Origin: Apostichopus japonicus
Taxonomy: Eukaryota > Echinodermata > Holothuroidea > Aspidochirotida > Stichopodidae
Assembly: GCF_037975245.1 (NCBI RefSeq)
Contig: NC_092576.1
Span: forward strand, 14,712,611 to 14,776,610
Reading direction: 5' to 3'
DNA: 64,000 bases
Made by a program: the position numbers and the translations under genes. The notes under the pieces were generated by a model. The model was not told the DNA's origin. It worked only from the letters and a program-made list of their open reading frames with translations, and did not search any database. This document shows, in pieces, positions 10,375-52,125 of the stretch (position 1 is the first letter of the stretch; every line of letters begins with the position of its first letter).

Positions 10375-11843
<1,469 letters not shown>

Positions 11844-11879
11844 TTATACACCGCTACAAACCAAGATGGATCCAAGCAG
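11844..11879 (+). CDS. 36-nt candidate exon, splice-donor exon feeding the microexon array
   Basis: A long pyrimidine tract ending TTTTCTCAG is followed by 36 nt and a strong donor, AGCAG|GTAAGG. The length is a multiple of three, so phase is preserved. Two readings are open. In phase 2 it contains an ATG at 11,866 in a strong context (AAGATGG) and would start MDPS followed by a split AG codon. In phase 0 it reads LYTATNQDGSKQ. It is the nearest strong exon upstream of the array on the same strand, so it is the natural 5' partner for the first microexon at 13,920. Splicing is inferred from sequence only. Confidence 0.5.
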
Positions 11880-13139: not shown

Positions 13140-13620
13140 TTATGTTGAGAGCCAAAACCTTCGGAAAAGCTAGTTGTTCTATTTGTAACTCTAATAAAGT
13201 GGTGGTGGGAGAGGTGGGTAGTGTTATAGGTCATATATTAAGGTTATCTATGTTTTGGGTGTGTGTGGGGCGGGGGTAGTACTTTGATAGGTATTAAGGT
13301 TATCTATTTTCTTCGATGGGAGTACTCTATTCGATTAAGGCAAAAAAAGTTTCTTAGTTTACTTCCTTTCACATTTTTTACTTATTTGCAGTTATATTGT
13401 CTTATTCATCTTGTTATACTATGTGATGGAACAAATAAATAATTAAAGAAAAAAAATTGTTTAACCATCAATGATATCAGTTAGTCAAGTGTAGAGCCAC
13501 AAACAGAGGAAAGCTAATGAAAACTAATGATTTCACATGGCACAGATTTACATTTTATAGTCACTGTGCTTGTGTCTTTGCTGTTTTTTCTCATGTTTAT
13601 TTTTCATTATTTAAGGAAAT
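13140..13620. repeat. left-flank segment duplicated inside the array
   Basis: This block (GGTGGTGGGAG, GTGTGTGGGGCGGGGG, TTAAGGTTATCTATTTTC) recurs at 23,345-23,850 with few differences. It marks the left edge of the array and shows that flank DNA was carried into the array during rearrangement. Confidence 0.8.
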
Positions 13621-13869
13621 GTAACAATTTCCACAGCATTGGTAATGCACAACGAACATGTTTATCGAATACATGGATCGCAATGTCTATGGAGATAGAA
13701 AGATTGTTGTTATTAAGTTGCAGCTTAAACATTTAACAATTGACGATATGAGCTAGTGAGGTGAAGATGAAAATCAGGGAAATTGCTACAAAAAAGTACA
13801 TTATTTACTTATAATAAAAGTACATTTTAAAGACGCTGTGTTTGACTTTTTACTAGGATCCATTAACTA

Positions 13870-15870
13870 TATTAAAAGATGATAAGTTCTTTTCTTCTTT
13901 CTATGTAATTTTGTTTCAGAAGGTAAGTCTTTTTCATGAGTTACGTTTGTGTATACTGATTAATTTCAAATCCCTCTTCAAAGAAACCAACAGCCAGGGA
14001 ATTCAGTTCTAGTCAATTCCTTATTTCATACATAATATTAATGGAATATTTTTCATTTAACAACATTTGAAATAGTTATACGTTAACATTTTATCGATTA
14101 TAAGATGACAAGATCAATGAAAAAGAACGATTGTTTTGAAATTAAGTTGTTACTTTAATATTTAAACATTAATCATATGGACAAGGGATATTTATTCCTT
14201 TTTATTTTTTATTTTTAATGAAATGTTATTATTTTCACAACTTTGATAACGCACAACGAACATCTTTATCAGGCACGGAAAGCTAGTTGTTACAGTTATA
14301 GTAAACTGACATTTTAACGTCCCTGTGCTTGTGTTTTTACTATTTTTCTCTATTATATGATGATTTCTTTGTTTACTTCTTTCCATCTGTTCGTTTCTTT
14401 ATAGCCGGTAAGTCTTCATCATAATTAACTTTTGTAGAACCGTGTCATAATCTATTCCAACGAGGGCAATCAATTCCTGTAATTTCTTTATGTTCATGAA
14501 AACTAGTTGTTTCTCTTATAATAATGATATCAGTGAGTCAAGTGTAGACCCACAAACAGAGGAAAGCTAATGAAAACTAACTATTTCATATATCATCATA
14601 TCATAAATCCCTGTTCAAAGAAACCATCAGCCAGGAGAATTAATTCATATTAATTCCTAATTTGATACATAATATTAATGGAAATGTTTTATTTAACACA
14701 TTGTTTAATAGTTTAATTCAATAACATGTTCATCGATTATATGATGACAAGTTCAATGAAGATAGAACGGTTGTTTAGAAATGAATTTGTAACTTTAATA
14801 TTTAACCATCAATGTATCAGTTAGCCAGGTTTAGAGACACAAACAGTGAAAGCTAATGATAAATAATGATTTCAAATGTCATAAACTTATATTTTATAGT
14901 CACTGTGCTTGTTGTCTTTGCTGTTTTTTACTCTATTATATGACAATTTGTTCTTTCCTTCTTTCTCTCTGTTTCTTTTCAGGGGGTAAGTATTTATCAT
15001 GATTAAAGATTGCAGATACATGTTATTATATATTCCCCTTACAAAGAAGCAACCAGTGAAATCAATTCCTGTTACTTCTTTGTTATCATCATCAACAATG
15101 TCAATGACATATTAAAACTTGCACAACATTGGTAACGCACAATTTAAGACAATTAAATGTTTATCGATTATATGAATAACAAGTTCAATAAAGATAGAAC
15201 AATTGTTTTGAAATTAAGTTGTTACTTTAAGATTTAAACATTAATGAAATGGACCAAAGATATAAATTCTTGTTTATTTTTCATGATTTAAGCAAATGTA
15301 ACAATTTCCACAGCATTGGTAACGCACAACGAACATGTTTATCGAATACATGGATCGCAATGTCTATGAAGATAGAACGATTGTTGTTATTAATTTGTAG
15401 CTTTAACATTTAACCATTGACGATATGCGCTAGTGAGGTGAAGATCAAAAACAAGGAATAGGCTACAGAAAACTGTTTAACCTGTAGTAAACGTACATTT
15501 TAAAGACGCTGTGTTTGTCTGTTTACTAGGATCCACTAACTATATTAAAAGATGATAAGTTCTTTTCTTCTTTTCTATGTTTTTTTTTCAGCCGGTGAGT
15601 CTTTTTCATGAGTTACGTTTGTGTATACTCATGATTATCAAATCCCTGTTTAAAGAAACCATCAAACAGGAGAATTAATTCATATTAATTCCTTATTTCA
15701 TACATAATATTAATGGAAATGTTTTATTTAACAACATTGTTTAATAGTTTAATTCAATAACATGTTCATCGATTATATGATGAAAAGTTCAATGAAGATA
15801 GAACGTTTGTTTGAAATGAATTTGTTACTTTAATATCTAACCATCAATGTATCAGTTAGTCAGGTTTAGA
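13870..15870 (+). repeat. array segment 1, microexons 1-4
   Basis: Microexons: AAG 13,920-13,922; CCG 14,405-14,407 (acceptor TAG); GGG 14,983-14,985; CCG 15,592-15,594 (donor GTGAGT). Four different module types sit side by side and none is a close copy of its neighbour, so this is probably an older part of the array. The first two modules are close relatives of the last two modules of the whole array (50,488 and 50,971). Confidence 0.8.
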
Positions 15871-18800
15871 GTCACAAACACTGGAAAGCTAATGATAACT
15901 AATGACTTCAAATGTCATAAACTTACATTTTATAGTCACTGTGCTTGTGTCTTTGCTGTTTTTTTCTCTATTATATGACGATATGTTCTTTCCTTCTTTC
16001 TATCCGTTTCTTTTCAGGTGGTAAGTATTTTTGTATAACATGTATAACAAGTATAACAAGTATAACATGATTTAAGATTGCAGATACATGTTATTACATA
16101 TTCCCCTTTCAAAGAAGCAACCAGTGAAATCAATTCCTGTTACTTCTTTGTTATCATCATCAACAATGTCAATGAAATATTAAAATTTGCACAACATTGG
16201 TAACGCACAATTTAAGACAATTAAATGTTTATCGATTATATGAATAACAAGTTAAATAAAGATAGAACAATTGTTTTGAAATTAAGTTGTTACTTTAAGA
16301 TTTAAACATTAATGATATGGACCAAAGATATAAATTCTTGTTTATTTTTCATGATTTAAGCAAATGTAACAATTTCCACAGCATTGGTTACGCACAACGA
16401 ACATGTTTATCGAATACATGGATCGCAATGTCTATGAAGATAGAGCGATTGTTGTTATTAATTTGTAGCTTTAATATTTAACCATCAATGTATCAGTTAG
16501 CCAGGTTTAGAGACACAAACAGTGGAAAGCTAATAATAACTAATGATTTCAAATGTCATAAACTTATATTTTATAGTCACTGTGCTTGTGTCTTTGCTGT
16601 TTTTTTCTCTATTATATGACAATTTGTTCTTTCCTTTTATCTATCCGTTTCTTTTCAGGGGGTAAGTATTTAACATGATTAAAGATTGCAGATACATGTT
16701 ATTGCATATTCCCCTTACAAAGAAGCAACCAGTGAAATCAATTCTTGTTACTTCTTTGTTATCATCATCAACAATGTCAATGACATATTAAAACTTGCAC
16801 AACATTGGTAACGCACAATTTAAGACAATTAAATGTTTATCGATTATATGAATAACAAGTTAAATAAAGATAGAACAATTGTTTTGAAATTAAGTTGTTA
16901 CTTTAAGATTTACACATTAATGATATGGACCAAAGATATAAATTCTTGTTTATTTTTCATGATTTAAGCAAATGTAACAATTTCCACAGCATTGGTAACG
17001 CACAACGAACATGTTTATCGAATACATGGATCGCAATGTCTATGAAGATAGAGCGATTGTTGTTATTAATTTGTAGCTTTAATATTTAACCATCAATGTA
17101 TCAGTTAGCCAGGTTTAGAGACACAAACAGTGGAAAGCTAATAATAACTAATGATTTCAAATGTCATAAACTTATATTTTATAGTCACTGTGCTTGTGTC
17201 TTTGCTGTTTTTTTCTCTATTATATGACAATTTGTTCTTTCCTTTTATCTATCCGTTTCTTTTCAGAGGGTAAGTATTTAACATGATTAAAGATTGCAGA
17301 TACATGTTATTGCATATTCCCCTTACAAAGAAGCAACCAGTGAAATCAATTCCTGTTATTTCTTTGTTATCATCATCAACAATGTCAATGACATATTAAA
17401 ATTTGCACAACATTGGTAACGCACAATTTAAGACAATTAACTGTTTATCGGTTATATGAATAACAAGTTCAATAAAGATAGAACAATTGTTTAGAAATTA
17501 AGTTGTTACTTTAAGATTTAAACATTAATGGTATGGACCAAAGATATAAATTCTTGTTTATATTTAATTATTTAAGCAAATGTAACAATTTCCACAGCAT
17601 CGGTAACGCACAACGAACATGTTTATCGAATACATGGATCGCAATGTCTTGATCATGATTAACAATTATATAACCGTGTAATTGTCTCATCCCAAGGTGG
17701 TAAACAATTCCTGTTAATTCTTTCTTTTGATGTACACACAATTTGAATAATTTATGATAATTAGCACAACTTTGGTAACGTACGATTTAATACAATAACG
17801 TGTTTTTCGAGTATATGAATGGCAATGTCAATGAAACTGGAACTCATTTTTAAATAAATGTGTTCAACATATATTGATCCGTTAATGATATTAGCTAGTG
17901 AAGTGATGAGCCAAAACAAAGTGAAAGCTCATGTAAAACTAGTTGTTTCTCTAATAATATACTTACACCTAAATTCGCTCTGCTTGTGTTTTGAATGTGT
18001 TTTTCCCCATCATATAACGATTGTTCTTTACTTCTATCTATTCGTTTTCATTCAGTTGGTAAGTCTTAATCATTATTAACGGTTGTAGATACAAGTCATT
18101 GCATATCCTCCTGTCAAAGAAACCACCGGAGAATCAAGTCCTGTTAATTCTTTATTTTCATACACAATTTGAATGAAATATTAAAATTTGCACAACATTG
18201 GTAACGCACAATTTAAGACAATTAAATGTTTATCGATTATATGAATAACAAGTTAAATAAAGATAGAACAATTGTTTTGAAATTAAGTTGTTACTTTAAT
18301 ATTTAAACATTAATGATATGGACCAAGGATATAAATTCTTGTTTATTTTTCATGATTTAAGCAAATGTAACAATTTCCACAGCATTGGTAACGCACAACG
18401 AACATGTTTATCGAATACATGGATCGCAATGTCTATGAAGATAGAGCGATTGTTGTTATTAATTTGTAGCTTTAATATTTAACCATCAATGTATCAGTTA
18501 GCCAGGTTTAGAGACACAAACAGTGGAAAGCTAATAATAACTAATGATTTCAAATGTCATAAACTTATATTTTATAGTCACTGTGCTTGTGTCTTTGCTG
18601 TTTTTTTCTCTATTATATGACGATATGTTCTTTCCTTCTTTCTATCCGTTTCTTTTCAGGTGGTAAGTATTTTTGTATAACATGTATAACAAGTATAACA
18701 AGTATAACATGATTTAAGATTGCAGATACATGTTATTACATATTCCCCTTTCAAAGAAGCAACCAGTGAAATCAATTCCTGTTACTTCTTTGTTATCATC

Positions 18801-21800
18801 ATCAACAATGTCAATGAAATATTAAAATTTGCACAACATTGGTAACGCACAATTTAAGACAATTAAATGTTTATCGATTATATGAATAACAAGTTAAATA
18901 AAGATAGAACAATTGTTTTGAAATTAAGTTGTTACTTTAAGATTTAAACATTAATGATATGGACCAAAGATATAAATTCTTGTTTATTTTTCATGATTTA
19001 AGCAAATGTAACAATTTCCACAGCATTGGTTACGCACAACGAACATGTTTATCGAATACATGGATCGCAATGTCTATGAAGATAGAGCGATTGTTGTTAT
19101 TAATTTGTAGCTTTAATATTTAACCATCAATGTATCAGTTAGCCAGGTTTAGAGACACAAACAGTGGAAAGCTAATAATAACTAATGATTTCAAATGTCA
19201 TAAACTTATATTTTATAGTCACTGTGCTTGTGTCTTTGCTGTTTTTTTCTCTATTATATGACAATTTGTTCTTTCCTTTTATCTATCCGTTTCTTTTCAG
19301 GGGGTAAGTATTTAACATGATTAAAGATTGCAGATACATGTTATTGCATATTCCCCTTACAAAGAAGCAACCAGTGAAATCAATTCTTGTTACTTCTTTG
19401 TTATCATCATCAACAATGTCAATGACATATTAAAACTTGCACAACATTGGTAACGCACAATTTAAGACAATTAAATGTTTATCGATTATATGAATAACAA
19501 GTTAAATAAAGATAGAACAATTGTTTTGAAATTAAGTTGTTACTTTAAGATTTACACATTAATGATATGGACCAAAGATATAAATTCTTGTTTATTTTTC
19601 ATGATTTAAGCAAATGTAACAATTTCCACAGCATTGGTAACGCACAACGAACATGTTTATCGAATACATGGATCGCAATGTCTATGAAGATAGAGCGATT
19701 GTTGTTATTAATTTGTAGCTTTAATATTTAACCATCAATGTATCAGTTAGCCAGGTTTAGAGACACAAACAGTGGAAAGCTAATAATAACTAATGATTTC
19801 AAATGTCATAAACTTATATTTTATAGTCACTGTGCTTGTGTCTTTGCTGTTTTTTTCTCTATTATATGACAATTTGTTCTTTCCTTTTATCTATCCGTTT
19901 CTTTTCAGAGGGTAAGTATTTAACATGATTAAAGATTGCAGATACATGTTATTGCATATTCCCCTTACAAAGAAGCAACCAGTGAAATCAATTCCTGTTA
20001 TTTCTTTGTTATCATCATCAACAATGTCAATGACATATTAAAATTTGCACAACATTGGTAACGCACAATTTAAGACAATTAACTGTTTATCGGTTATATG
20101 AATAACAAGTTCAATAAAGATAGAACAATTGTTTAGAAATTAAGTTGTTACTTTAAGATTTAAACATTAATGGTATGGACCAAAGATATAAATTCTTGTT
20201 TATATTTAATTATTTAAGCAAATGTAACAATTTCCACAGCATCGGTAACGCACAACGAACATGTTTATCGAATACATGGATCGCAATGTCTTGATCATGA
20301 TTAACAATTATATAACCGTGTAATTGTCTCATCCCAAGGTGGTAAACAATTCCTGTTAATTCTTTCTTTTGATGTACACACAATTTGAATAATTTATGAT
20401 AATTAGCACAACTTTGGTAACGTACGATTTAATACAATAACGTGTTTTTCGAGTATATGAATGGCAATGTCAATGAAACTGGAACTCATTTTTAAATAAA
20501 TGTGTTCAACATATATTGATCCGTTAATGATATTAGCTAGTGAAGTGATGAGCCAAAACAAAGTGAAAGCTCATGTAAAACTAGTTGTTTCTCTAATAAT
20601 ATACTTACACCTAAATTCGCTCTGCTTGTGTTTTGAATGTGTTTTTCCCCATCATATAACGATTGTTCTTTACTTCTATCTATTCGTTTTCATTCAGTTG
20701 GTAAGTCTTAATCATTATTAACGGTTGTAGATACAAGTCATTGCATATCCTCCTGTCAAAGAAACCACCGGAGAATCAAGTCCTGTTAATTCTTTATTTT
20801 CATACACAATTTGAATGAAATATTAAAATTTGCACAACATTGGTAACGCACAATTTAAGACAATTAAATGTTTATCGATTATATGAATAACAAGTTAAAT
20901 AAAGATAGAACAATTGTTTTGAAATTAAGTTGTTACTTTAATATTTAAACATTAATGATATGGACCAAGGATATAAATTCTTGTTTATTTTTCATGATTT
21001 AAGCAAATGTAACAATTTCCACAGCATTGGTAACGCACAACGAACATGTTTATCGAATACATGGATCGCAATGTCTATGAAGATAGAGCGATTGTTGTTA
21101 TTAATTTGTAGCTTTAATATTTAACCATCAATGTATCAGTTAGCCAGGTTTAGAGACACAAACAGTGGAAAGCTAATAATAACTAATGATTTCAAATGTC
21201 ATAAACTTATATTTTATAGTCACTGTGCTTGTGTCTTTGCTGTTTTTTCTCTATTATATGACAATTTGTTCTTTCCTTTTATCTATCCGTTTCTTTTCAG
21301 GGGGTAAGTATTTAACATGATTAAAGATTGCAGATACATGTTATTGCATATTCCCCTTACAAAGAAGCAACCAGTGAAATCAATTCTTGTTACTTCTTTG
21401 TTATCATCATCAACAATGTCAATGACATATTAAAACTTGCACAACATTGGTAACGCACAATTTAAGACAATTAAATGTTTATCGATTATATGAATAACAA
21501 GTTAAATAAAGATAGAACAATTGTTTTGAAATTAAGTTGTTACTTTAAGATTTACACATTAATGATATGGACCAAAGATATAAATTCTTGTTTATTTTTC
21601 ATGATTTAAGCAAATGTAACAATTTCCACAGCATTGGTAACGCACAACGAACATGTTTATCGAATACATGGATCGCAATGTCTATGAAGATAGAGCGATT
21701 GTTGTTATTAATTTGTAGCTTTAATATTTAACCATCAATGTATCAGTTAGCCAGGTTTAGAGACACAAACAGTGGAAAGCTAATAATAACTAATGATTTC

Positions 21801-23330
21801 AAATGTCATAAACTTATATTTTATAGTCACTGTGCTTGTGTCTTTGCTGTTTTTTTCTCTATTATATGACAATTTGTTCTTTCCTTTTATCTATCCGTTT
21901 CTTTTCAGAGGGTAAGTATTTAACATGATTAAAGATTGCAGATACATGTTATTGCATATTCCCCTTACAAAGAAGCAACCAGTGAAATCAATTCCTGTTA
22001 TTTCTTTGTTATCATCATCAACAATGTCAATGACATATTAAAATTTGCACAACATTGGTAACGCACAATTTAAGACAATTAACTGTTTATCGGTTATATG
22101 AATAACAAGTTCAATAAAGATAGAACAATTGTTTAGAAATTAAGTTGTTACTTTAAGATTTAAACATTAATGGTATGGACCAAAGATATAAATTCTTGTT
22201 TATATTTAATTATTTAAGCAAATGTAACAATTTCCACAGCATCGGTAACGCACAACGAACATGTTTATCGAATACATGGATCGCAATGTCTTGATCATGA
22301 TTAACAATTATATAACCGTGTAATTGTCTCATCCCAAGGTGGTAAACAATTCCTGTTAATTCTTTCTTTTGATGTACACACAATTTGAATAATTTATGAT
22401 AATTAGCACAACTTTGGTAACGTACGATTTAATACAATAACGTGTTTTTCGAGTATATGAATGGCAATGTCAATGAAACTGGAACTCATTTTTAAATAAA
22501 TGTGTTCAACATATATTGATCCGTTAATGATATTAGCTAGTGAAGTGATGAGCCAAAACAAAGTGAAAGCTCATGTAAAACTAGTTGTTTCTCTAATAAT
22601 ATACTTACACCTAAATTCGCTCTGCTTGTGTTTTGAATGTGTTTTTCCCCATCATATAACGATTGTTCTTTACTTCTATCTATTCGTTTTCATTCAGTTG
22701 GTAAGTCTTAATCATTATTAACGGTTGTAGATACAAGTCATTGCATATCCTCCTGTCAAAGAAACCACCGGAGAATCAAGTCCTGTTAATTCTTTATTTT
22801 CATACACAATTTGAATGAAATATTAAAATTTGCACAACATTTGTAACGCACAATTTAAGACAATTAAATGTTTATCGATTATATGAATAACAAGTTAAAT
22901 AAAGATAGAACAATTGTTTTGAAATTAAGTTGTTACTTTAATATTTAAACATTAATGATATGGACCAAGGATATAAATTCTTGTTTATTTTTCATGATTT
23001 AAGCAAATGTAACAATTTCCACAGCATTGGTAACGCACAACGAACATGTTTATCGAATACATGGATCGCAATGTCTATGAAGATAGAACGATTGTTGTTA
23101 TTAATTTGTAACTTTAATATTTAACAATCAATGTATCAGTTAGCCAGGTTTAGAGACACAAACAGTGGAAAGCTAATGATAACTAATGATTTCAAATGTC
23201 ATAAACTTATATTTTATAGTCACTGTGCTTGTGTCTTTGCTTTTTTTCTCTATTATATGACAATTTGTTCTTTTCTTCTATCTATCCGTTTCTTTTCAGG
23301 AGGTAAGTCTTTATCATGATTAAAGATTGC
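15871..23330 (+). repeat. array segment 2, 2,642-bp higher-order repeat, microexons 5-16
   Basis: Microexons: GTG 16,018; GGG 16,659; AGG 17,267; TTG 18,056; GTG 18,660; GGG 19,301; AGG 19,909; TTG 20,698; GGG 21,301; AGG 21,909; TTG 22,698; GAG 23,300 (first base given, each three bases). The four-exon unit GTG-GGG-AGG-TTG repeats at exactly 2,642 bp. A third copy lacks the GTG module and is offset by exactly 2,000 bp, so one 642-bp module is missing. The copies are nearly identical, with single differences such as a one-base T-tract change near 21,242 and ACATTTGTAACG for ACATTGGTAACG near 22,840. This is a recent duplication. Repeated 73-codon open frames at 17,858, 20,500 and 22,500 run across a donor and are not genes. 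Confidence 0.85.
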
Positions 23331-23860
23331 AGCTTATGTTGAGAGCCAAAAGCTTATGTTGAGAGCCAAAACCTTCGGAAAAGCTAGTTGTTCTATTTGT
23401 AACTCTAATAAAGTGGTGGTGGGAGGGGGGGTAGTGTTATAGGTCATATATTAAGGTTATCTATGTTTTGGGTGTGTGTGTGGGGCGGGGGGGTAGTACT
23501 TTGATAGGTATTAAGGTTATCTATTTTCTTCGATGGGAGTACTCTATTCTATTAAGCCAAAAAAAGTTTCTTAGTTTACTTCCTTTCACATTTTTTACTT
23601 ATTTACAGTTATATTGTCTTATTCATCTTGTTATACTATGTGATGGAACAAATCAATAATTTAAAAAAAAAAATTGTTTAACCATCAATGATATCAGTTA
23701 GTCAAGTGTAGAGCCACAAACAGAGGAAAGCTAATGAAAACTACTGATTTCACATTGCACAGATTCACATTTTATAGTCACTGTGCTTGTGTCTTTGCTG
23801 TTTATGCTCATGTTTATTTTTCATTATTTAAGGAAATGTAACAATTTCCACAGCATTGGT
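23331..23860 (+). repeat. array segment 3, inserted copy of the left flank, no microexon
   Basis: This segment repeats the left flank at 13,140-13,620, including GTGTGTGTGGGGCGGGGG and the T-rich TTTACTTATTTACAG tract. It opens with a short tandem duplication of CTTATGTTGAGAGCCAAAA. There is no NNG microexon in it, so the intron between GAG 23,300 and GCG 24,103 is one of the longest in the array, about 0.8 kb. Confidence 0.8.
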
Positions 23861-26790
23861 AATCTTCAAGTTCAATGAAGATAGAACGGTTGTTTTGAAA
23901 TGAATTTGTAACTTTAATATTTAACCATCAATGTATCATTTAGCCAGGTTTAGAGACACAAACAGTGGAAAGCTAATGATAACTAATGATTTCAAATGTC
24001 ATAAACTTATATTTTATAGTCACTGTGCTTGTGCCTTTGCTGTGTTTTTTCTCTATTATATGACAATTTGTTCTTTCCTGCTATCTATCCGTTTCTTTTC
24101 AGGCGGTAAGTATTTATCATGATTAAAGATTGCAGATACATATTATTACATATTACCCTTTCAAAGAAGCAACCAGTGAAATCAATTCGTGTTACTTCTT
24201 TGTTATCATCATCAACAATGTCAATGAAATATTAAAATTTTCACAACATTGGTAACGCACAATTTAAGACAATTAAATGTTTATCGATTATATGAATAAC
24301 AAGTTCAATAAAGATAGAACAATTGTTTTGAAATTAAGTTGTTACTTTAATATTTAAACATTAATGGTATGGACCAAAGATATAAATTCTTGTTTATTTT
24401 TCATTATTTAGGCAAATGTAACAATTTCCACAGCATTGGTAATGCACAACGAACATGTTTATCGAATACATGGATCGCAATGTCTATGAAGATAGAACGA
24501 TTGTTGTTATTAATTTGTAGCTTTAACATTTAACCATTGACGATATGCGCTAGTGAGGTGAAGATCAAAAACAAGGAATAGGCTACAGAAAACTGTTTAA
24601 CCTGTAGTAAACATACATTTTAAAGACGCTGTGTTTGTCTGTTTACTAGGAGCCACTAACTATATTAAAAGATGATAAGTTCTTTTCTTCTCTCTATGTT
24701 TTTTTTTCAGCCGGTGAGTCATTTTCATGAGTTACATTTGTGTATACTCATGATTATCAAATCCCTGTTCAAAGAAACCATCAAACAGGAGAATTAAATC
24801 CTTATTTCATACATAATATTAATGGAAATGTTTTATTTAACAACATTGTTTAATAGTCTAATTCAATAACATGTTCATCGATTATATGATGACAAGTTCA
24901 ATGAAGATAGAACGGTTGTTTTGAAATGAATTTGTTACTTTAATATTTAACCATCAATGTATCAGTTAGCCAGGTTTAGAGACACAAACAGTGGAAAGCT
25001 AATGATAACTAATGATTTCAAATGTCATAAACTTATATTTTATAGTCACTGTGCTTGTGTCTTTGCTTTTTTTCTCTATTATATGACAATTTGTTCTTTT
25101 CTTTTATCTATCCGTTTCTTTTCAGGTGGTAAGTCTTTAACATGATTAAAAGCTTGCAGATACATGTTATTACATATTCCCCTTACAAAGAAACAACCAG
25201 TGAAATCAATTCCTGTTACTTCTTTGTTATCATCATCAACAATGTCAATGAAATATTAAAACTTGCACAACATTGGTAACGCACAATTTAAGACAATTAA
25301 ATGTTTATCGATTATATGAATAACAAGTTCAATAAAGATAGAACAATTGTTTTGAAATTAAGTTGTTACTTTAATATTTAAACATTAATGGTATGGACCA
25401 AAGATATAAATTCTTGTTTATTTTTCATTATTTAGGCAAATGTAACAATTTCCACAGCATTGGTAATGCACAACGAACATGTTTATCGAATACATGGATC
25501 GCAATGTCTATGAAGATAGAACGATTGTTGTTATTAATTTGTAGCTTTAACATTTAACCATTGACGATATGCGCTAGTGAGGTGAAGATCAAAAACAAGG
25601 AATAGGCTACAGAAAACTGTTTAACCTGTAGTAAACATACATTTTAAAGACGCTGTGTTTGTCTGTTTACTAGGAGCCACTAACTATATTAAAAGATGAT
25701 AAGTTCTTTTCTTCTCTCTATGTTTTTTTTTCAGCCGGTGAGTCATTTTCATGAGTTACATTTGTGTATACTCATGATTATCAAATCCCTGTTCAAAGAA
25801 ACCATCAAACAGGAGAATTAAATCCTTATTTCATACATAATATTAATGGAAATGTTTTATTTAACAACATTGTTTAATAGTCTAATTCAATAACATGTTC
25901 ATCGATTATATGATGACAAGTTCAATGAAGATAGAACGGTTGTTTTGAAATGAATTTGTTACTTTAATATTTAACCATCAATGTATCAGTTAGCCAGGTT
26001 TAGAGACACAAACAGTGGAAAGCTAATGATAACTAATGATTTCAAATGTCATAAACTTATATTTTATAGTCACTGTGCTTGTGTCTTTGCTTTTTTTCTC
26101 TATTATATGACAATTTGTTCTTTTCTTTTATCTATCCGTTTCTTTTCAGGTGGTAAGTCTTTAACATGATTAAAAGCTTGCAGATACATGTTATTACATA
26201 TTCCCCTTACAAAGAAACAACCAGTGAAATCAATTCCTGTTACTTCTTTGTTATCATCATCAACAATGTCAATGACATATTAAAACTTGCACAACATTGG
26301 TAACGCACAATTTAAGACAATTAAATGTTTATCGATTATATGAATAACAAGTTAAATAAAGATAGAACAATTGTTTTGAAATTAAGTTGTTACTTTAATA
26401 TTTAAACATTAATGATATGGACCAAGGATATAAATTCTTGTTTAATTTTCATTATTTAAGCAAATGTAACAATTTCCACAGCATTGGTAACGCACAACGA
26501 ACATGTTTATCGAATACATGGATCGCAATGTCTATGAAAATAGAACGATTGTTGTTATTAATTTGTAACTTTAATATTTAACAATCAATGTATCAGTTAG
26601 CCAGGTTTAGAGACACAAACAGTGGAAAGCTAATGATAACTAATGATTTCAAATGTCATAAACTTATATTTTATAGTCACTGTGCTTGTGTCTTTGCTTT
26701 TTTTCTCTATTATATGACAATTTGTTCTTTTCTTCTATCTATCCGTTTCTTTTCAGGAGGTAAGTCTTTATCATGATTAAAGATTGCAGG
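23861..26790 (+). repeat. array segment 4, 1,024-bp two-exon repeat, microexons 17-22
   Basis: Microexons: GCG 24,103; CCG 24,711 (GTGAGT); GTG 25,126; CCG 25,735 (GTGAGT); GTG 26,150; GAG 26,757. The CCG-GTG pair repeats at exactly 1,024 bp and the two copies look almost identical. The CCG modules carry GCCACTAAC about 60 nt before the acceptor, matching a strong branch-point consensus (CTAAC). Confidence 0.85.
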
Positions 26791-32700: not shown

Positions 32701-33200
32701 ATATTCCCCTTTCAAAGAAGCAACCAGTGAAATCAATTCTTGTTACTTCTTTGTTATCATCATCAACAATGTCAATGAAATATTAAAATTTGCACAACAT
32801 TGGTAACGCACAATTTAAGACAATTAAATGTTTATCGATTATATGAATAACAAATTATATAAAGATAGAACAATTGTTTTGAAATTAAGTTGTTACTTTA
32901 ATATTTAAACATTAATGATATGGACCAAGAATATAAATTCTTGTTTATTTTTCATTATTTAAGCAAATGTAACAATTTCCACAGCATTGGTAACGCACAA
33001 CGAACATGTTTATCGAATACATGGATCGCAATGTCTATGAAGATAGAACGATTGTTGTTATTAATTTGTAGCTTTAACATTTAACCATTGACGATATGCG
33101 CTAGTGAGGTGAAGATCAAAAACAAGGAATAGGCTACAGAAAACTGTTTTACTTGTAGAAAACGTACATTTTAAAGACGCTGTGTTTGTCTGTTTACTAG
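26791..33200 (+). repeat. array segment 5, three-exon repeat, microexons 23-34
   Basis: Microexons: CCG 27,148; AAG 27,749; GAG 28,174; CGG 28,566; AAG 29,159; GTG 29,588; CCG 30,007; AAG 30,600; GGG 31,029; CCG 31,635; AAG 32,228; GGG 32,654. The order is a trimer, first CCG (once CGG), then AAG, then a G-starting triplet that varies (GAG, GTG, GGG, GGG). Unit length is about 1.4-1.6 kb. The modules are less alike than in segments 2 and 6, so triplet bases have diverged while splice signals have not. The CGG at 28,566 differs from its CCG relatives by one base. Confidence 0.85.
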
Positions 33201-39200: not shown

Positions 39201-42200
39201 AAGATAGAACAATTGTTTTGAAATTAAGTTGTTACTTTAATATTTAAACATTAATGATATGGACCAAGGATATAAATTCTTGTTTATTTTTCATTATTTA
39301 AGGAAATGTAACAATTTCCACAGCATTGGTAACGCACAACGAACATGATTATCGAATACATGGATCGCAATGTCTATGAAGATAGAACGATTGTTGTTAT
39401 TAATTTGTAGCTTTAACATTTAAACATTGACGATATGCGCTAGTGAGGTGAAGATCAAAAACAAGGAATAGGCTACAGAAAACTGTTTTACTTGTTGTAA
39501 ACGTTCATTTTAAAGACGCTGTGTTTGTCTGTTTACTAGGATCCATTTCTCTATTAAAAGATGATAAGTTCTTTTCTCCTTTCTATGTTTTTTTTTTTTT
39601 CAGTCGGTAAGTCTTTTTCATGAGTTACGTTTGTGTATACTCATGATTATCAAATCCCTGTTCAAAGAAACCATCAAGCAGGAGAATTAATTCATATTAA
39701 TTCCTTATTTCATACATAATATTAATGGAAATGTTTTATTTAACAACATTGTTTAATAGTTTAATTCAATAACATGTTCATCGATTATATGATGTCAAGT
39801 TCAATGAAGATAGAACGGTTGTTTTGAAATGAATTTGTAACTTTAATATTTAACTATCAATGTATCAGTTAGCCAGGTTTAGAGACACAAACAGTGGAAA
39901 GCTAATGATAACTAATGATTTCAAATGTCATAAACTTATATTTTACAGTCACTGTGCTTGTGTCTTTGCTGTTTTTTCTCTATTATATGACAATTTGTTC
40001 TTTCCTTCTTTCTCTCTGTTTCTTTTCAGGGGGTAAGTATTTATCATGATTAAAGATTGCAGATACATGTTATTACATATTCCCCTTTCAAAAAGAAGCC
40101 ACCAGAGAAATCAATTCCTGTTAATTTTTGATTTTCATCATCAAAATTGTCAATGAAAAATTATAATTTGCACAAAATTCTTTATTTTCATGTATACACA
40201 ATTTGAATGAAATATTATAATATGCACAACAATGGTAACACAAGATTTAATACAATAACAACTTTATCGATGATATGAATGACAAGTACACTAAAGATAG
40301 AACAATTGTTTGGAAACTAAGTTGTTACTTTATTATTTAAACATTAATAATATGGACCAGGGATATGAATTCTTGTTCTTTTTTCATTATTTAAGGAAAT
40401 GTAACAATTTCCACAGCATTGGTAACGCACAACGAACATGCTCATCGAAAACATGGATCGCAATGTCTTTGAAGATAGAACGATTGTTGTTATTAATTTG
40501 CAGCTTAAACATTTAACCATTGAGGATATGCGCTAGTGAGGTGAAGATCAAAAACAAGGAATAGGCTACAGAAAACTGTTTTACTTGTTGTAAACGTTCA
40601 TTTTAAAGACGCTGTGTTTGTCTGTTTACTAGGATCCATTTCTCTATTAAAAGATGATAAGTTCTTTTCTCCTTTCTATGTTTTTTTTTTTTTTCAGTCG
40701 GTAAGTCTTTTACATGAGTTACGTTTGTGTATACTCATGATTATCAAATCCCTGTTCAAAGAAACCATCAAGCAGGAGAATTAATTCATATTAATTCCTT
40801 ATTTCATACATAATATTAATGGAAATGTTTTATTTAACAACATTGTTTAATAGTTTAATTCAATAACATGTTCATCGATTATATGATGTCAAGTTCAATG
40901 AAGATAGAACGGTTGTTTTGAAATGAATTTGTAACTTTAATATTTAACTATCAATGTATCAGTTAGCCAGGTTTAGAGACACAAACAGTGGAAAGCTAAT
41001 GATAACTAATGATTTCAAATGTCATAAACTTATATTTTACAGTCACTGTGCTTGTGTCTTTGCTGTTTTTTCTCTATTATATGACAATTTGTTCTTTCCT
41101 TCTTTCTCTCTGTTTCTTTTCAGGGGGTAAGTATTTATCATGATTAAAGATTGCAGATACATGTTATTACATATTCCCCTTTCAAAAAGAAGCCACCAGA
41201 GAAATCAATTCCTGTTAATTTTTGATTTTCATCATCAACATTGTCAATGAAAAATTATAATTTGCACAAAATTCTTTATTTTCATGTATACACAATTTGA
41301 ATGAAATATTATAATATGCACAACAATGGTAACACACGATTTAATACAATAACAACTTTATCGATGATATGAATGACAAGTACAGTAAAGATAGAACAAT
41401 TGTTTGGAAACTAAGTTGTTACTTTATTATTTAAACATTAATAATATGGACCAGGGATATGAATTCTTGTTCTTTTTTCATTATTTAAGGAAATGTAACA
41501 ATTTCCACAGCATTGGTAACGCACAACGAACATGCTCATCGAAAACATGGATCGCAATGTCTTTGAAGATAGAACGATTGTTGTTATTAATTTGCAGCTT
41601 AAACATTTAACCATTGACGATATGCGCTAGTGAGGTGAAGATCAAAAACAAGGAATAGGCTACAGAAAACTGTTTTACTTGTTGTAAACGTTCATTTTAA
41701 AGACGCTGTGTTTGTCTGTTTACTAGGATCCATTTCTCTATTAAAAGATGATAAGTTCTTTTCTCCTTTCTATGTTTTTTTTTTTTTTTCAGTCGGTAAG
41801 TCTTTTACATGAGTTACGTTTGTGTATACTCATGATTATCAAATCCCTGTTCAAAGAAACCATCAAGCAGGAGAATTAATTCATATTAATTCCTTATTTC
41901 ATACATAATATTAATGGAAATGTTTTATTTAACAACATTGTTTAATAGTTTAATTCAATAACATGTTCATCGATTATATGATGTCAAGTTCAATGAAGAT
42001 AGAACGGTTGTTTTGAAATGAATTTGTAACTTTAATATTTAACTATCAATGTATCAGTTAGCCAGGTTTAGAGACACAAACAGTGGAAAGCTAATGATAA
42101 CTAATGATTTCAAATGTCATAAACTTATATTTTACAGTCACTGTGCTTGTGTCTTTGCTGTTTTTTCTCTATTATATGACAATTTGTTCTTTCCTTCTTT

Positions 42201-45200
42201 CTCTCTGTTTCTTTTCAGGGGGTAAGTATTTATCATGATTAAAGATTGCAGATACATGTTATTACATATTCCCCTTTCAAAAAGAAGCCACCAGAGAAAT
42301 CAATTCCTGTTAATTTTTGATTTTCATCATCAACATTGTCAATGAAAAATTATAATTTGCACAAAATTCTTTATTTTCATGTATACACAATTTGAATGAA
42401 ATATTATAATATGCACAACAATGGTAACACAAGATTTAATACAATAACAACTTTATCGATGATATGAATGACAAGTACAGTCAAGATAGAACAATTGTTT
42501 GGAAACTAAGTTGTTACTTTATTATTTAAACATTAATAATATGGACCAGGGATATGAATTCTTGTTCTTTTTTCATTATTTAAGGAAATGTAACAATTGC
42601 CACAGCATTGGTAACGCACAACGAACATGTTTATCGAATACATGGATCGCAATGTCTATGAAGATAGAACGATTGTTGTTATTAATTTGTAGCTTTAACA
42701 TTTAACCATTGACGATATGCGCTAGTGAGGTGAAGATCAAAAACAAGGAATAGGCTACAGAAAACTGTTTTACTTGTTGTAAACGTTCATTTTAAAGACG
42801 CTGTGTTTGTCTGTTTACTAGGATCCATTTCTCTATTAAAAGATGATAAGTTCTTTTCTCCTTTCTATGTTTTTTTTTTTTTTTTTTCAGTCGGTAAGTC
42901 TTTTACATGAGTTACGTTTGTGTATACTCATGATTATCAAATCCCTGTTCAAAGAAACCATCAAGCAGGAGAATTAATTCATATTAATTCCTTATTTCAT
43001 ACATAATATTAATGGAAATGTTTTATTTAACAACATTGTTTAATAGTTTAATTCAATAACATGTTCATCGATTATATGATGTCAAGTTCAATGAAGATAG
43101 AACGGTTGTTTTGAAATGAATTTGTAACTTTAATATTTAACTATCAATGTATCAGTTAGCCAGGTTTAGAGACACAAACAGTGGAAAGCTAATGATAACT
43201 AATGATTTCAAATGTCATAAACTTATATTTTACAGTCACTGTGCTTGTGTCTTTGCTGTTTTTTCTCTATTATATGACAATTTGTTCTTTCCTTCTTTCT
43301 CTCTGTTTCTTTTCAGGGGGTAAGTATTTATCATGATTAAAGATTGCAGATACATGTTATTACATATTCCCCTTTCAAAAAGAAGCCACCAGAGAAATCA
43401 ATTCCTGTTAATTTTTGATTTTCATCATCAAAATTGTCAATGAAAAATTATAATTTGCACAAAATTCTTTATTTTCATGTATACACAATTTGAATGAAAT
43501 ATTATAATATGCACAACAATGGTAACACAAGATTTAATACAATAACAACTTTATCGATGATATGAATGACAAGTACACTAAAGATAGAACAATTGTTTGG
43601 AAACTAAGTTGTTACTTTATTATTTAAACATTAATAATATGGACCAGGGATATGAATTCTTGTTCTTTTTTCATTATTTAAGGAAATGTAACAATTTCCA
43701 CAGCATTGGTAACGCACAACGAACATGCTCATCGAAAACATGGATCGCAATGTCTTTGAAGATAGAACGATTGTTGTTATTAATTTGCAGCTTAAACATT
43801 TAACCATTGACGATATGCGCTAGTGAGGTGAAGATCAAAAACAAGGAATAGGCTACAGAAAACTGTTTTACTTGTTGTAAACGTTCATTTTAAAGACGCT
43901 GTGTTTGTCTGTTTACTAGGATCCATTTCTCTATTAAAAGATGATAAGTTCTTTTCTCCTTTCTATGTTTTTTTTTTTTCAGTCGGTAAGTCTTTTACAT
44001 GAGTTACGTTTGTGTATACTCATGATTATCAAATCCCTGTTCAAAGAAACCATCAAGCAGGAGAATTAATTCATATTAATTCCTTATTTCATACATAATA
44101 TTAATGGAAATGTTTTATTTAACAACATTGTTTAATAGTTTAATTCAATAACATGTTCATCGATTATATGATGTCAAGTTCAATGAAGATAGAACGGTTG
44201 TTTTGAAATGAATTTGTAACTTTAATATTTAACTATCAATGTATCAGTTAGCCAGGTTTAGAGACACAAACAGTGGAAAGCTAATGATAACTAATGATTT
44301 CAAATGTCATAAACTTATATTTTACAGTCACTGTGCTTGTGTCTTTGCTGTTTTTTCTCTATTATATGACAATTTGTTCTTTCCTTCTTTCTCTCTGTTT
44401 CTTTTCAGGGGGTAAGTATTTATCATGATTAAAGATTGCAGATACATGTTATTACATATTCCCCTTTCAAAAAGAAGCCACCAGAGAAATCAATTCCTGT
44501 TAATTTTTGATTTTCATCATCAACATTGTCAATGAAAAATTATAATTTGCACAAAATTCTTTATTTTCATGTATACACAATTTGAATGAAATATTATAAT
44601 ATGCACAACAATGGTAACACACGATTTAATACAATAACAACTTTATCGATGATATGAATGACAAGTACAGTAAAGATAGAACAATTGTTTGGAAACTAAG
44701 TTGTTACTTTATTATTTAAACATTAATAATATGGACCAGGGATATGAATTCTTGTTCTTTTTTCATTATTTAAGGAAATGTAACAATTTCCACAGCATTG
44801 GTAACGCACAACGAACATGCTCATCGAAAACATGGATCGCAATGTCTTTGAAGATAGAACGATTGTTGTTATTAATTTGCAGCTTAAACATTTAACCATT
44901 GACGATATGCGCTAGTGAGGTGAAGATCAAAAACAAGGAATAGGCTACAGAAAACTGTTTTACTTGTTGTAAACGTTCATTTTAAAGACGCTGTGTTTGT
45001 CTGTTTACTAGGATCCATTTCTCTATTAAAAGATGATAAGTTCTTTTCTCCTTTCTATGTTTTTTTTTTTTTTTCAGTCGGTAAGTCTTTTACATGAGTT
45101 ACGTTTGTGTATACTCATGATTATCAAATCCCTGTTCAAAGAAACCATCAAGCAGGAGAATTAATTCATATTAATTCCTTATTTCATACATAATATTAAT

Positions 45201-48200
45201 GGAAATGTTTTATTTAACAACATTGTTTAATAGTTTAATTCAATAACATGTTCATCGATTATATGATGTCAAGTTCAATGAAGATAGAACGGTTGTTTTG
45301 AAATGAATTTGTAACTTTAATATTTAACTATCAATGTATCAGTTAGCCAGGTTTAGAGACACAAACAGTGGAAAGCTAATGATAACTAATGATTTCAAAT
45401 GTCATAAACTTATATTTTACAGTCACTGTGCTTGTGTCTTTGCTGTTTTTTCTCTATTATATGACAATTTGTTCTTTCCTTCTTTCTCTCTGTTTCTTTT
45501 CAGGGGGTAAGTATTTATCATGATTAAAGATTGCAGATACATGTTATTACATATTCCCCTTTCAAAAAGAAGCCACCAGAGAAATCAATTCCTGTTAATT
45601 TTTGATTTTCATCATCAACATTGTCAATGAAAAATTATAATTTGCACAAAATTCTTTATTTTCATGTATACACAATTTGAATGAAATATTATAATATGCA
45701 CAACAATGGTAACACAAGATTTAATACAATAACAACTTTATCGATGATATGAATGACAAGTACAGTCAAGATAGAACAATTGTTTGGAAACTAAGTTGTT
45801 ACTTTATTATTTAAACATTAATAATATGGACCAGGGATATGAATTCTTGTTCTTTTTTCATTATTTAAGGAAATGTAACAATTGCCACAGCATTGGTAAC
45901 GCACAACGAACATGTTTATCGAATACATGGATCGCAATGTCTATGAAGATAGAACGATTGTTGTTATTAATTTGTAGCTTTAACATTTAACCATTGACGA
46001 TATGCGCTAGTGAGGTGAAGATCAAAAACAAGGAATAGGCTACAGAAAACTGTTTTACTTGTTGTAAACGTTCATTTTAAAGACGCTGTGTTTGTCTGTT
46101 TACTAGGATCCATTTCTCTATTAAAAGATGATAAGTTCTTTTCTCCTTTCTATGTTTTTTTTTTTTTTCAGTCGGTAAGTCTTTTACATGAGTTACGTTT
46201 GTGTATACTCATGATTATCAAATCCCTGTTCAAAGAAACCATCAAGCAGGAGAATTAATTCATATTAATTCCTTATTTCATACATAATATTAATGGAAAT
46301 GTTTTATTTAACAACATTGTTTAATAGTTTAATTCAATAACATGTTCATCGATAATATGATGTCAAGTTCAATGAAGATAGAACGTTTGTTTTGAAATGA
46401 ATTGGAACTTTAATATTTAACTATCAATGTATCAGTTAGCCAGGTTTAGAGACACAAACAGTGGAAAGCTAATGATAACTAATGATTTCAAATGTCATAA
46501 ACTTATATTTTACAGTCACTGTGCTTGTGTCTTTGCTGTTTTTTCTCTATTATATGACAATTTGTTCTTTCCTTCTTTCTCTCTGTTTCTTTTCAGGGGG
46601 TAAGTATTTATCATGATTAAAGATTGCAGATACATGTTATTACATATTCCCCTTTCAAAAAGAAGCCACCAGAGAAATCAATTCCTGTTAATTTTTGATT
46701 TTCATCATCAAAATTGTCAATGAAAAATTATAATTTGCACAAAATTCTTTATTTTCATGTATACACAATTTGAATGAAATATTATAATATGCACAACAAT
46801 GGTAACACAAGATTTAATACAATAACAACTTTATCGATGATATGAATGACAAGTACAGTAAAGATAGAACAATTGTTTGGAAACTAAGTTGTTACTTTAT
46901 TATTTAAACATTAATAATATGGACCAGGGATATGAATTCTTGTTCTCTTTTCATTATTTAAGGAAATGTTACAATTTTGACAACATTGGTAACGCACAAC
47001 GAACATGCTCATCGAAAACATGGATCGCAATGTCTTTGAAGATAGAAAGATTGTTGTTATTAATTTGCAGCTTAAACATTTAACAATTGACGATATGCGC
47101 TAGTGAGGTGAAGATCAAAAACAAGGAATAGGCTACAGAAAACTGTTTTACTTGTTGTAAACGTTCATTTTAAAGACGCTGTGTTTGTCTGTTTACTAGG
47201 ATCCATTTCTCTATTAAAAGATGATAAGTTCTTTTCTCCTTTCTATGTTTTTTTTTTTTTTTCAGTCGGTAAGTCTTTTACATGAGTTACGTTTGTGTAT
47301 ACTCATGATTATCAAATCCCTGTTCAAAGAAACCATCAAGCAGGAGAATTAATTCATATTAATTCCTTATTTCATACATAATATTAATGGAAATGTTTTA
47401 TTTAACAACATTGTTTAATAGTTTAATTCAATAACATGTTCATCGATAATATGATGTCAAGTTCAATGAAGATAGAACGTTTGTTTTGAAATGAATTTGT
47501 AACTTTAATATTTAACTATCAATGTATCAGTTAGCCAGGTTTAGAGACACAAACAGTGGAAAGCTAATGATAACTAATGATTTCAAATGTCATAAACTTA
47601 TATTTTACAGTCACTGTGCTTGTGTCTTTGCTGTTTTTTTCTCTATTATATGACAATTTGTTCTTTCCTTATATCTATCCGTTTCTTTTCAGGGGGTAAG
47701 TATTTATCATGATTAAAGATTGCAGATACATTTTATTACAAATTCCCCTTTCAAAGAAGCAACCAGTGATATCAATTCTTGTTACTTCTTTGTTATCATC
47801 ATCAACAATGTCAATGAAATATTAAAATTTGCACAACATTGGTAACGCACAATTTAAGACAATTAAATGTTTATCGATTATATGAATAACAAGTTAAATA
47901 AAGATAGAACAATTGTTTTGAAATTAAGTTGTTACTTTAATATTTAAACATTAATGATATGGACCAAGGATATAAATTCTTGTTTATTTTTCATTATTTA
48001 AGCAAATGTAACAATTTCCACAGCATTGGTAACGCACAACGAACATGATTATCGAATACATGGATCGCAATGTCTATGAAGATAGAACGATTGTTGTTAT
48101 TAATTTGTAGCTTTAACATTTAAACATTGACGATATGCGCTAGTGAGGTGAAGATCAAAAACAAGGAATAGGCTACAGAAAACTGTTTTACTTGTTGTAA

Positions 48201-50330
48201 ACGTTCATTTTAAAGACGCTGTGTTTGTCTGTTTACTAGGATCCATTTCTCTATTAAAAGATGATAAGTTCTTTTCTCCTTTCTATGTTTTTTTTTTTTC
48301 AGTCGGTAAGTCTTTTTCATGAGTTACGTTTGTGTATACTCATGATTATCAAATCCCTGTTCAAAGAAACCATCAAGCAGGAGAATTAATTCATATTAAT
48401 TCCTTATTTCATACATAATATTAATGGAAATGTTTTATTTAACAACATTGTTTAATAGTTTAATTCAATAACATGTTCATCGATAATATGATGTCAAGTT
48501 CAATGAAGATAGAACGTTTGTTTTGAAATGAATTTGTAACTTTAATATTTAACTATCAATGTATCAGTTAGCCAGGTTTAGAGACACAAACAGTGGAAAG
48601 CTAATGATAACTAATGATTTCAAATGTCATAAACTTATATTTTACAGTCACTGTGCTTGTGTCTTTGCTGTTTTTTCTCTATTATATGACAATTTGTTCT
48701 TTCCTTCTTTCTCTCTGTTTCTTTTCAGGGGGTAAGTATTTATCATGATTAAAGATTGCAGATACATGTTATTACATATTACCCTTTCAAAAAGAAGCCA
48801 CCAGAGAAATCAATTCCTGTTAATTTTTGATTTTCATCATCAAAATTGTTAATGAAAAATTATAATTTGCACAAAATTCTTTATTTTCATGTATACACAA
48901 TTTGAATGAAATATTATAATATGCACAACAATGGTAACACACGATTTAATACAATAACAACTTTATCGATGATATGAATGACAAGTACAGTAAAGATAGA
49001 ACAATTGTTTGGAAACTAAGTTGTTACTTTATTATTTAAACATTAATAATATGGACCAGGGATATGAATTCTTGTTCTTTTTTCATTATTTAAGGAAATG
49101 TAACAATTTCCACAGCATTGGTAACGCACAACGAACATGCTCATCGAAAACATGGATCGCAATGTCTTTGAAGATAGAACGATTGTTGTTATTAATTTGC
49201 AGCTTAAACATTTAACCATTGACGATATGCGCTAGTGAGGTGAAGATCAAAAACAAGGAATAGGCTACAGAAAAACTGTTTTACTTGTTGTAAACGTTCA
49301 TTTTAAAGACGCTGTGTTTGTCTGTTTACTAGGATCCATTTCTCTATTAAAAGATGATAAGTTCTTTTCTCCTTTCTATGTTTTTTTTTTTTTTTTCAGT
49401 CGGTAAGTCTTTTACATGAGTTACGTTTGTGTATACTCATGATTATCAAATCCCTGTTCAAAGAAACCATCAAGCAGGAGAATTAATTCATATTAATTCC
49501 TTATTTCATACATAATATTAATGGAAATGTTTTATTTAACAACATTGTTTAATAGTTTAATTCAATAACATGTTCATCGATAATATGATGTCAAGTTCAA
49601 TGAAGATAGAACGTTTGTTTTGAAATGAATTTGTAACTTTAATATTTAACTATCAATGTATCAGTTAGCCAGGTTTAGAGACACAAACAGTGGAAAGCTA
49701 ATGATAACTAATGATTTCAAATGTCATAAACTTATATTTTACAGTCACTGTGCTTGTGTCTTTGCTGTTTTTTCTCTATTATATGACAATTTGTTCTTTC
49801 CTTCTTTCTCTCTGTTTCTTTTCAGGGGGTAAGTATTTATCATGATTAAAGATTGCAGATACATGTTATTACATATTCCCCTTTCAAAAAGAAGCCACCA
49901 GAGAAATCAATTCCTGTTAATTTTTGATTTTCATCATCAAAATTGTCAATGAAAAATTATAATTTGCACAAAATTCTTTATTTTCATGTATACACAATTT
50001 GAATGAAATATTATAATATGCACAACAATGGTAACACAAGATTTAATACAATAACAACTTTATCGATGATATGAATGACAAGTACAGTCAAGATAGAACA
50101 ATTGTTTGGAAACTAAGTTGTTACTTTATTATTTAAACATTAATAATATGGACCAGGGATATGAATTCTTGTTCTCTTTTCATTATTTAAGGAAATGTTA
50201 CAATTTTGACAACATTGGTAACGCACAACGAACATGCTCATCGAAAACATGGATCGCAATGTCTTTGAAGATAGAAAGATTGTTGTTATTAATTTGCAGC
50301 TTAAACATTTAACAATTGACGATATGAGCT
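33201..50330 (+). repeat. array segment 6, ~1,095-bp TCG-GGG repeat, microexons 35-66
   Basis: Start positions. TCG: 33,262, 35,332, 36,429, 37,470, 38,566, 39,604, 40,698, 41,793, 42,891, 43,983, 45,078, 46,172, 47,266, 48,303, 49,400. GGG: 33,689, 34,722, 35,758, 36,856, 37,896, 38,993, 40,030, 41,124, 42,219, 43,317, 44,409, 45,504, 46,597, 47,693, 48,729, 49,826. One AAG at 34,295 replaces TCG. Intron lengths alternate: about 423 nt after TCG and about 608 or 667 nt after GGG. Units measure 1,092-1,098 bp, except three of 1,037-1,041 bp. The T tract before TCG varies from 9 to 18. Copies are almost identical, so this is the youngest part of the array. Recurrent 68-codon frames starting METKLLLYYLNINN are intron sequence. 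Confidence 0.88.
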
Positions 50331-51260
50331 AGTGAGGTGAAGATGAAAATCAGGGAATTTGCTACAAAAAAGTACATATTTTACTTATAATAAACGTACA
50401 TTTTAAAGACGCTGATTTTGACTTTTTACTAGGATCCATTAACTATATTAAAAGTTCTTTTCTTCTTTGTATGTAATTTTGTTTCAGAAGGTAAGTCTTT
50501 TTCATGAGTTACCTTTGTGTATACTTATTAATTTCAAATCCCTCTTCAAAGAAACCAACAGCCAGGGAATTCAGTTCTAATCAATTCCTTATTTCGTACA
50601 TAATATTAACGGAATCTTTTTCATTTAACAACATTTGAAATAGTTTATACGTTAACATTTTATCGATTATAAGATGACAAGATCAATGCAAAAGAACGAT
50701 TGTTTTGAAATTAAGTTGTTACTTTAATATTTAAACATTAATCATATGGACAAGGGATATTTATTCCTTTTTATTTTTCATTTTTAATGAAATGTTATTA
50801 TTTTCACAACTTTGATAACGCACAACGAACATCTTTATCAGGCACGGAAAACTAGTTGTTACAGTTATAGTAAACTGACATTTTAACGTCACTGTGCTTG
50901 TGTTTTTACTGTTTTTCTCTGGTATATGATGTTTTTTTTTACTTCTTTCCATCTGTTCGTTTCTTTACAGCCGGTAAGTCTTCATCATTATTAATATTTG
51001 TGGAACCATGTCATTATCTGTTCCAACGAGGTCAATCACTTCCTGTAAATTCTTTATTTTCATGTATACACAATTTGAATGAAATATTATAATTTGCACA
51101 ACATTGGTAACGCACGATTTTAATACAATAACATGTTTATCGATGATATGAATGACAAGTTAATGAACATACAATGATATGTTTGTAAGCTAGTGAGGTC
51201 AAGAGCCAAAAGCAGGCAAAAAGTGACGGAAAACTAGTAAAATGACACTTTAAAGTCATT
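50331..51260 (+). repeat. array segment 7, last microexons 67-68
   Basis: Microexons: AAG 50,488-50,490 and CCG 50,971-50,973. The intron between them shares diagnostic sequence with the intron between microexons 1 and 2 (CAACAGCCAGGGAATTCAG, GGACAAGGGATATTTATTCC), and the spacing is 483 against 485 nt. Array-like sequence fades out near 51,260, just before the GATA tract. Confidence 0.85.
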
Positions 51261-51382
51261 GTACTATAAAGAAAAATATTTTTCTACTGTTAAAACCTTT
51301 TAGAATGTATTATGAATGAAAAAACAGATTATTTATCTTATACAATATTTATATATATATATATATATAGATAGAGAGATAA

Positions 51383-52125
<743 letters not shown>

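Follow-up and report, generated by a model that had tools for sequence, protein, structure and literature searches.

A 64,000-nucleotide stretch of the genome of the sea cucumber Apostichopus japonicus (hereafter the window; C16:14712611-14776610 of a 671.58-Mb assembly of 35 contigs) holds on its + strand a tandem array of intron-like modules, which spans window positions 13460..51264 and carries 68 microexons of three nucleotides each (13920..50973). We consider it probable that these are functional one-codon exons which make up the bulk of a protein-coding gene, and that its transcript would be spliced stepwise. Exons of three nucleotides are close to the smallest that a spliceosome is believed able to process, and they are known one at a time. 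As judged from sequence, single-codon exons are well supported here, because the AG and GT dinucleotides are invariant, the exon bases between them are hypervariable, the acceptors are preceded by an AG-free zone, and the exon with the putative start codon preserves the frame between paralogues. The claim of the original prediction that such exons are under splice-signal selection holds to this extent: AG and GT are conserved, the bases they enclose are hypervariable, the zone upstream lacks AG, and the codon register is free of stops.

All the cores of the window have the same form: a pyrimidine tract, YAG, three bases ending in G, and GTRAGT. The strict version, CAG-NNG-GTRAGT, has 67 matches on the + strand of the window and none on the - strand; 66 of the 67 start within the interval delimited by the original prediction, and the remaining one starts at 13917, just before it. 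When YAG is allowed there are 68 cores, all on +, with donors at 13923-50974 and acceptors that read CAG in 67 cases and TAG in one (at 14408), which bears out the earlier count of 68 tandem sites with a pyrimidine tract, CAG, NNG and GTRAGT. The first microexon is AAG (13920-13922) and the last CCG (50971-50973), and each would supply one codon in phase 0. The extent of the array follows from profile matches and intron lengths, the introns between cores being 388-800 nt long (median 599). Outside the cores, GTRAGT occurs once on + and four times on - across the 37.9-kb array region, and in the 100 kb to the left and right of the window a strict scan found no other three-nucleotide core on either strand. 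The modules themselves cluster into 13 groups at 8% distance, 7 at 15%, and 5 at 25%, and the seven representatives of the 15% clusters are 57-83% identical to each other. The array also contains recent block duplications (more than 3 kb at 92-98% identity). As many of the 68 modules are recent copies, they represent far fewer than 68 independent lineages.

There is a strong case, made by comparing modules, that the splice signals are under selection. On a tree of the 68 window modules, the columns of YAG, G, and GTRAGT, ten in all, require two parsimony changes, both of which preserve the consensus; the same shape moved across the alignment (466 placements) requires 19.0 changes on average and 6 at the lowest. 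Of the 478 columns of this alignment, that of exon base N2 changes most often (10 times), and N1 has 5 changes; a tree rebuilt with both exon bases masked gives 11 and 6, respectively. A joint set added four samples of dense arrays: L050 (C16:15.15 Mb, 17 intact cores), L049 (C8:39.72 Mb, 17 modules), L052 (C8:39.31 Mb, 7 cores), and L053 (C8:40.69 Mb, 7 cores). It comprises 115 modules drawn from 116 sites, one L052 site being too close to the sample end, and 312 columns with a mean of 5.3 changes; two altered L049 sites were entered by hand, and the aligner left a gap within the core in two L049 rows. The acceptor A, the acceptor G, and the donor T do not change at all in this set and the donor G changes once, which makes one change for AG and GT together versus a mean of 21.0 for the same shape elsewhere (300 placements). 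N2 (22 changes) and N1 (17) top the joint columns by parsimony, the next column having 14. IQ-TREE site rates on a tree made without N1 and N2 also rank N2 first and N1 third of the 312, and give AG and GT the minimum rate or one close to it. Invariant dinucleotides thus stand next to the most variable bases of the unit, and the core does not decay like its flanks, as that of an unselected satellite would. The speed of N1 and N2 could reflect unconstrained filler or diversifying selection, both of which would give the same pattern.

The acceptors also look like working ones, which have no AG for some distance downstream of the branch point. None of the 114 cores has another AG within 30 nt upstream, the shortest distance being 31 nt and the sample medians 78-82; for the other AGs of the same arrays, the median distances to the nearest AG are 8.5-12, and 17-26% lie at 30 nt or more. 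The rule that defined the sites in this comparison (AG-NNN-GT with a pyrimidine-rich 24-nt tract) alone makes AG rare in part of the zone. A scan of the 115 modules for YTNAY gave no clear branch-point peak. On the intron side, the motif CATNNTTA lies on the + strand at +13 to +21 past the donors and recurs in modules of both contigs.

Among the places listed, the family is concentrated on C16 and C8. Genome-wide, the pattern YAG NNN GTRAGT N6 CATNNTTA has 233 matches on + and 2 on -, versus 8 and 4 for a reversed-pattern control; the 100 listed places all fall at C8 39.309-39.749 Mb, with 135 further ones unlisted, and on C8 these listed places leave gaps between the sampled arrays. Two sub-patterns with complete lists (31 and 40 places) occur only at C8 39.33-40.25 Mb and at C16 14.73-14.74 and 15.146-15.162 Mb. 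A pattern with a strict pyrimidine tract has 29 matches on + and 4 on - (control 5 and 6); 11 of these 33 places are at C8 39.31-40.69 Mb and 15 on C16 (13 in the window, 2 at 15.15 Mb), and the others are three on C21 and single ones on C11, C13, C18, and C23. The three on C21 are about 30 kb apart and each encloses TCG, and the one that was fetched lies just upstream of an open reading frame (ORF) that resembles a signal peptide. The C21 sample (L051, C21:20408000-20417999) was rejected as an array: it is none, and it adjoins a gene that looks SRCR-like by eye.

A conserved 5' block ties these arrays together. It occupies 10647..13175 (+) in the window and was sought with the 2.85 kb ahead of the array as query; among the best 40 of 268 candidates, which were scored, it recurs at seven further places, always on the same strand as the arrays, so that relatives lie 5' of all seven other located array groups. 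Three relatives are C16:15141239 (98% identity), C8:39299052 (83%), and C8:40193264 (83%), and those near C8:39.581, 39.715, 39.809, and 40.672 Mb are in pieces (67-88%). The next listed cores follow 0.2-7.4 kb downstream of each relative. This leaves out a 0.3-kb piece that also matches C14 and the last quarter kb of the query, a dispersed repeat (window 13196-13450) that has numerous 82-93% copies elsewhere, on other contigs, and a 96% copy within the array at about 23.3-23.7 kb. By this sequence criterion there would be at least eight related loci, two on C16 and six on C8.

Two candidate exons within the block set the reading frame. Exon A (11844..11879, +, 36 nt) has strong splice sites and a candidate ATG at 11866, 14 nt before the exon end, in the context ACCAAGATGG. 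The original prediction had pointed to this 36-nt exon, and we found it again in the C8 paralogue L049, which covers part of a related block; the counterpart there (37-66) is 30 nt long, and its ATG, which an in-frame TAA precedes, is equally far from the donor. Exon B (12802..12811, +) is 10 nt long and its L049 counterpart (1574-1595) 22 nt; the pyrimidine tract before it and gtgagttgNatcaat are conserved between the two, and the donor after it matches. Both length differences are multiples of three. Counted from the ATG, exon B ends after 24 nt in the window and after 36 nt in L049, which places the first microexon in phase 0 and makes the first triplet a codon in both. No further strong exon was found between exon B and the first core in the window or L049.

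The register set by exons A and B is the only stop-free one in the five samples: none of the 187 triplets available as letters is a stop, and the other two registers have one TGA each, in L049 and L052. With the genome-wide pattern TAG is absent, T being first in 31 and A second in 40 of about 233 triplets, when about 5 TAG would be expected if the positions were independent. The triplet copies are not independent; hence, we simulated on the 115-leaf tree, which gave P = 0.041 for the lack of an in-register stop, and also thinned the triplets. Together with the splice signals, this provides good, if sequence-based, grounds to regard the exons as coding, one codon each. Two other phases were considered. 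Taking exon A for an internal exon in phase 0 (LYTATNQDGSKQ) works less well, since adding the 10-nt exon B then gives a register with the TGA in L049, and a phase in which all the GNG triplets would be glycine was given up for the same problem.

From these data we infer that the array is transcribed, spliced in order, and included in a protein; the very large splice-variant capacity that the original prediction foresaw is likewise conjectural. Translation would start at the ATG of exon A, run through exon B, and then take one codon from each microexon. With no more than 3 nt between them, acceptor and donor can hardly be occupied jointly, which suggests sequential (recursive) splicing: the upstream exon would join NNG and thereby recreate a strong donor, G/GTRAGT, for the next step. 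The repeat unit would be a complete intron plus one codon; unequal crossing-over would thus change the protein length by whole codons and leave the frame unbroken. A bolder version, which we put forward tentatively and at somewhat less than even chances, is that of a family of at least eight genes built one codon per exon, whose coding part comes from a satellite of intron plus codon; copy number would set the length, each residue would be open to alternative choice, and the codons would be under diversifying selection. The predicted window product is MDPSSSRS followed by a low-complexity stretch of 68 residues, mostly a Ser-Gly repeat towards the end.

A number of observations weigh against a functional array of coding exons. 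Recent duplication of two modules is alone expected to give the Ser-Gly repeat. The stop test is weak: thinned to the unique triplets of each sample (41), 2.1 stops are expected and P rises to 0.11. The frame is preserved across paralogues in one pair only, and the frame argument rests on that single pair. Exon A has an acceptor, so a further 5' exon is expected, and none was found upstream of it; at the other end, no convincing 3' terminal exon lies within 19 kb. A search with the conceptual 94-residue protein gave no match, with a query that included a 42-nt candidate exon (2326-2367) considered early, unsupported, and since dropped. Profile searches also revealed module remnants without the core segment within the window array, at 14506..14722 and at 17552..17807 (both +), the latter with duplicates at 20194-20449 and 22194-22449, and L050 has partial profile matches without a core. 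Among the 17 modules of L049, the donor GT is lost at 8712, donors are weakened at 5359 (GTTAGT), 5968 (GTATAT), and 9296 (GTAAGA), and the acceptors at 3570 and 5069 read AAG; L052 has one GTAGGT and L053 one GTAAAT. Some C8 triplets also lack the final G (TTT, GTT, GAA, GAC, CCA). The original prediction had the core intact in all copies, which is true of the 68 cores and fails for the modules, since coreless remnants exist; it had also named many broken cores elsewhere as evidence that would count against it, and the coreless modules and the damaged L049 cores go part of that way. Point damage is present in L049 and absent from the window and L050. Loss of a whole core spares the frame and remnants occur, hence such loss seems to be tolerated.

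The array could instead be a stealth intron satellite within a gene, made of nearly harmless units that remove themselves and leave one codon behind; the codons would be functionless, and the splice sites would be kept only because their breakage would spoil the host messenger RNA. This shares the splicing claim with the reading as functional one-codon exons and differs on function only. The recent block duplications are in line with it, as are N1 and N2 at the top of the rate range, where filler would be, and the fact that whole cores may be missing, yet none of the 68 window cores is broken by a point change. Filler does not require, however, that N1 and N2 rank third and first of 312, at or above nearly all the intron columns, and eight loci keep the arrangement even though identity to the window modules is just 65-80% in those sampled from L052 and L053. 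We regard this alternative as unlikely, while taking it seriously.

We give far less credence to the idea that the transcript is non-coding or untranslated and that the cores act as a recursive-splicing ratchet, by which a long intron would be shortened stepwise and the three nucleotides would be incidental. In the excerpts of PMC5126111 and PMC8605326, a ratchet point is an acceptor followed immediately by a donor, (Y)nNCAG/GTAAGT, that permits stepwise removal. The sea cucumber cores pair acceptor and donor just as closely and, but for the 3-nt gap, match the form excerpted from PMC5126111; the lack of a 3' coding exon is also consistent with this alternative. Ratchet points, however, are gapless and leave no bases, whereas three bases separate AG from GT in 68/68 window cores, which moreover occur in tandem. 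The three bases are also found at 46 sites of the other samples, though the regular expression demanded the gap; one more L049 module, which came from the profile search, lacks GT at the 3-nt position. A fixed gap, the absence of stops, and exons A and B that preserve the frame would have no reason in a non-coding transcript. Least credible of all, and in our view very nearly untenable, is plain satellite DNA that is never spliced and whose motif is kept by homogenisation or, e.g., by protein binding. Tandem copies and the recent blocks of more than 3 kb at 92-98% are what it would produce, but the flanks diverge down to 57-83% between window families with the core unchanged, the invariant bases border the fastest-changing ones, the acceptors have an AG-free zone upstream, and the located arrays are co-oriented with the conserved 5' block.

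Our literature search, which covered open-licence PMC papers, found no comparable array of single-codon exons among the papers listed. Known animal microexons come singly or a few per gene, the exons of schistosome micro-exon genes (MEGs) measure about 6-36 nt and are not known to form a tandem satellite, and introner elements are repeated sequences that carry their own splice sites and spread introns. The array units differ from introners, which are dispersed, in that they are tandem, were seen in numbers on no more than two contigs, and each leave behind an exon of a fixed 3 nt. Animal microexons range over 3-30 bp in the excerpt of PMC9929638, including a 4-bp exon of MPC1; like the array exons, they are too short for ordinary exon definition and have strong splice sites. 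MEGs would be the closest gene type, by their mode of working and not by any assigned homology. In the excerpt of PMC4350168, very small symmetrical exons make up most of what they encode, and variants arise by alternative splicing. The array exons are likewise symmetrical by sequence; they differ from those of MEGs in being all one codon long, in forming arrays of dozens, perhaps hundreds by array length, and in having an echinoderm host.

The neighbourhood offers no host gene so far. Eleven near-full-length copies and one partial copy of an LRR-like membrane-protein gene, 86-100% identical, lie at C16 14.58-15.12 Mb, and each C16 array starts about 17-23 kb downstream of such a copy; none of the 102 listed matches is on C8. 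By eye, these genes are single long ORFs of about 485 residues. The copy nearest the array has two in-frame TAA, and three copies have a second copy of their last 70 residues about 1 kb downstream. We rejected them as the host gene because the four flank copies upstream end in their own stops, and we regard them as neighbouring genes, outside the array gene, that were duplicated together with the C16 arrays. At -98 kb to -58 kb from the window, ORFs on + suggest by eye a receptor-like gene with EGF, Ig/FN3, transmembrane, and cytoplasmic exons; this EGF/FN3-like gene was not kept as host, as it was not linked to the array. On the minus strand at 793-1224, the window appears by eye to encode the C-terminal part of a seven-transmembrane receptor, for which Pfam gave no match. 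Pfam searches of 11 flank stretches returned nothing useful, with one weak match below cut-off, and Rfam returned only a transfer RNA (53662-53734, 51.1 bits). Shortly after the array comes an (ATAG)n run of 775 bp with 99% matches (51351-52125). Elsewhere, C1:3938998-3939450 has six copies of CAGNNGGTRAGT on the minus strand within 453 bp, probably a minisatellite.

If they work as we propose, such arrays, intact across deep divergence, would show that a spliceosome copes with one-codon exons by the dozen or more in succession, and that a satellite may expand within a gene while the reading frame stays unbroken. They allow recursive splicing to be tested directly. Such loci probably escape common aligners and gene finders, and similar ones may hide in other genomes. 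In the sea cucumber, the family would represent a new route for protein variation, both in length and in sequence.

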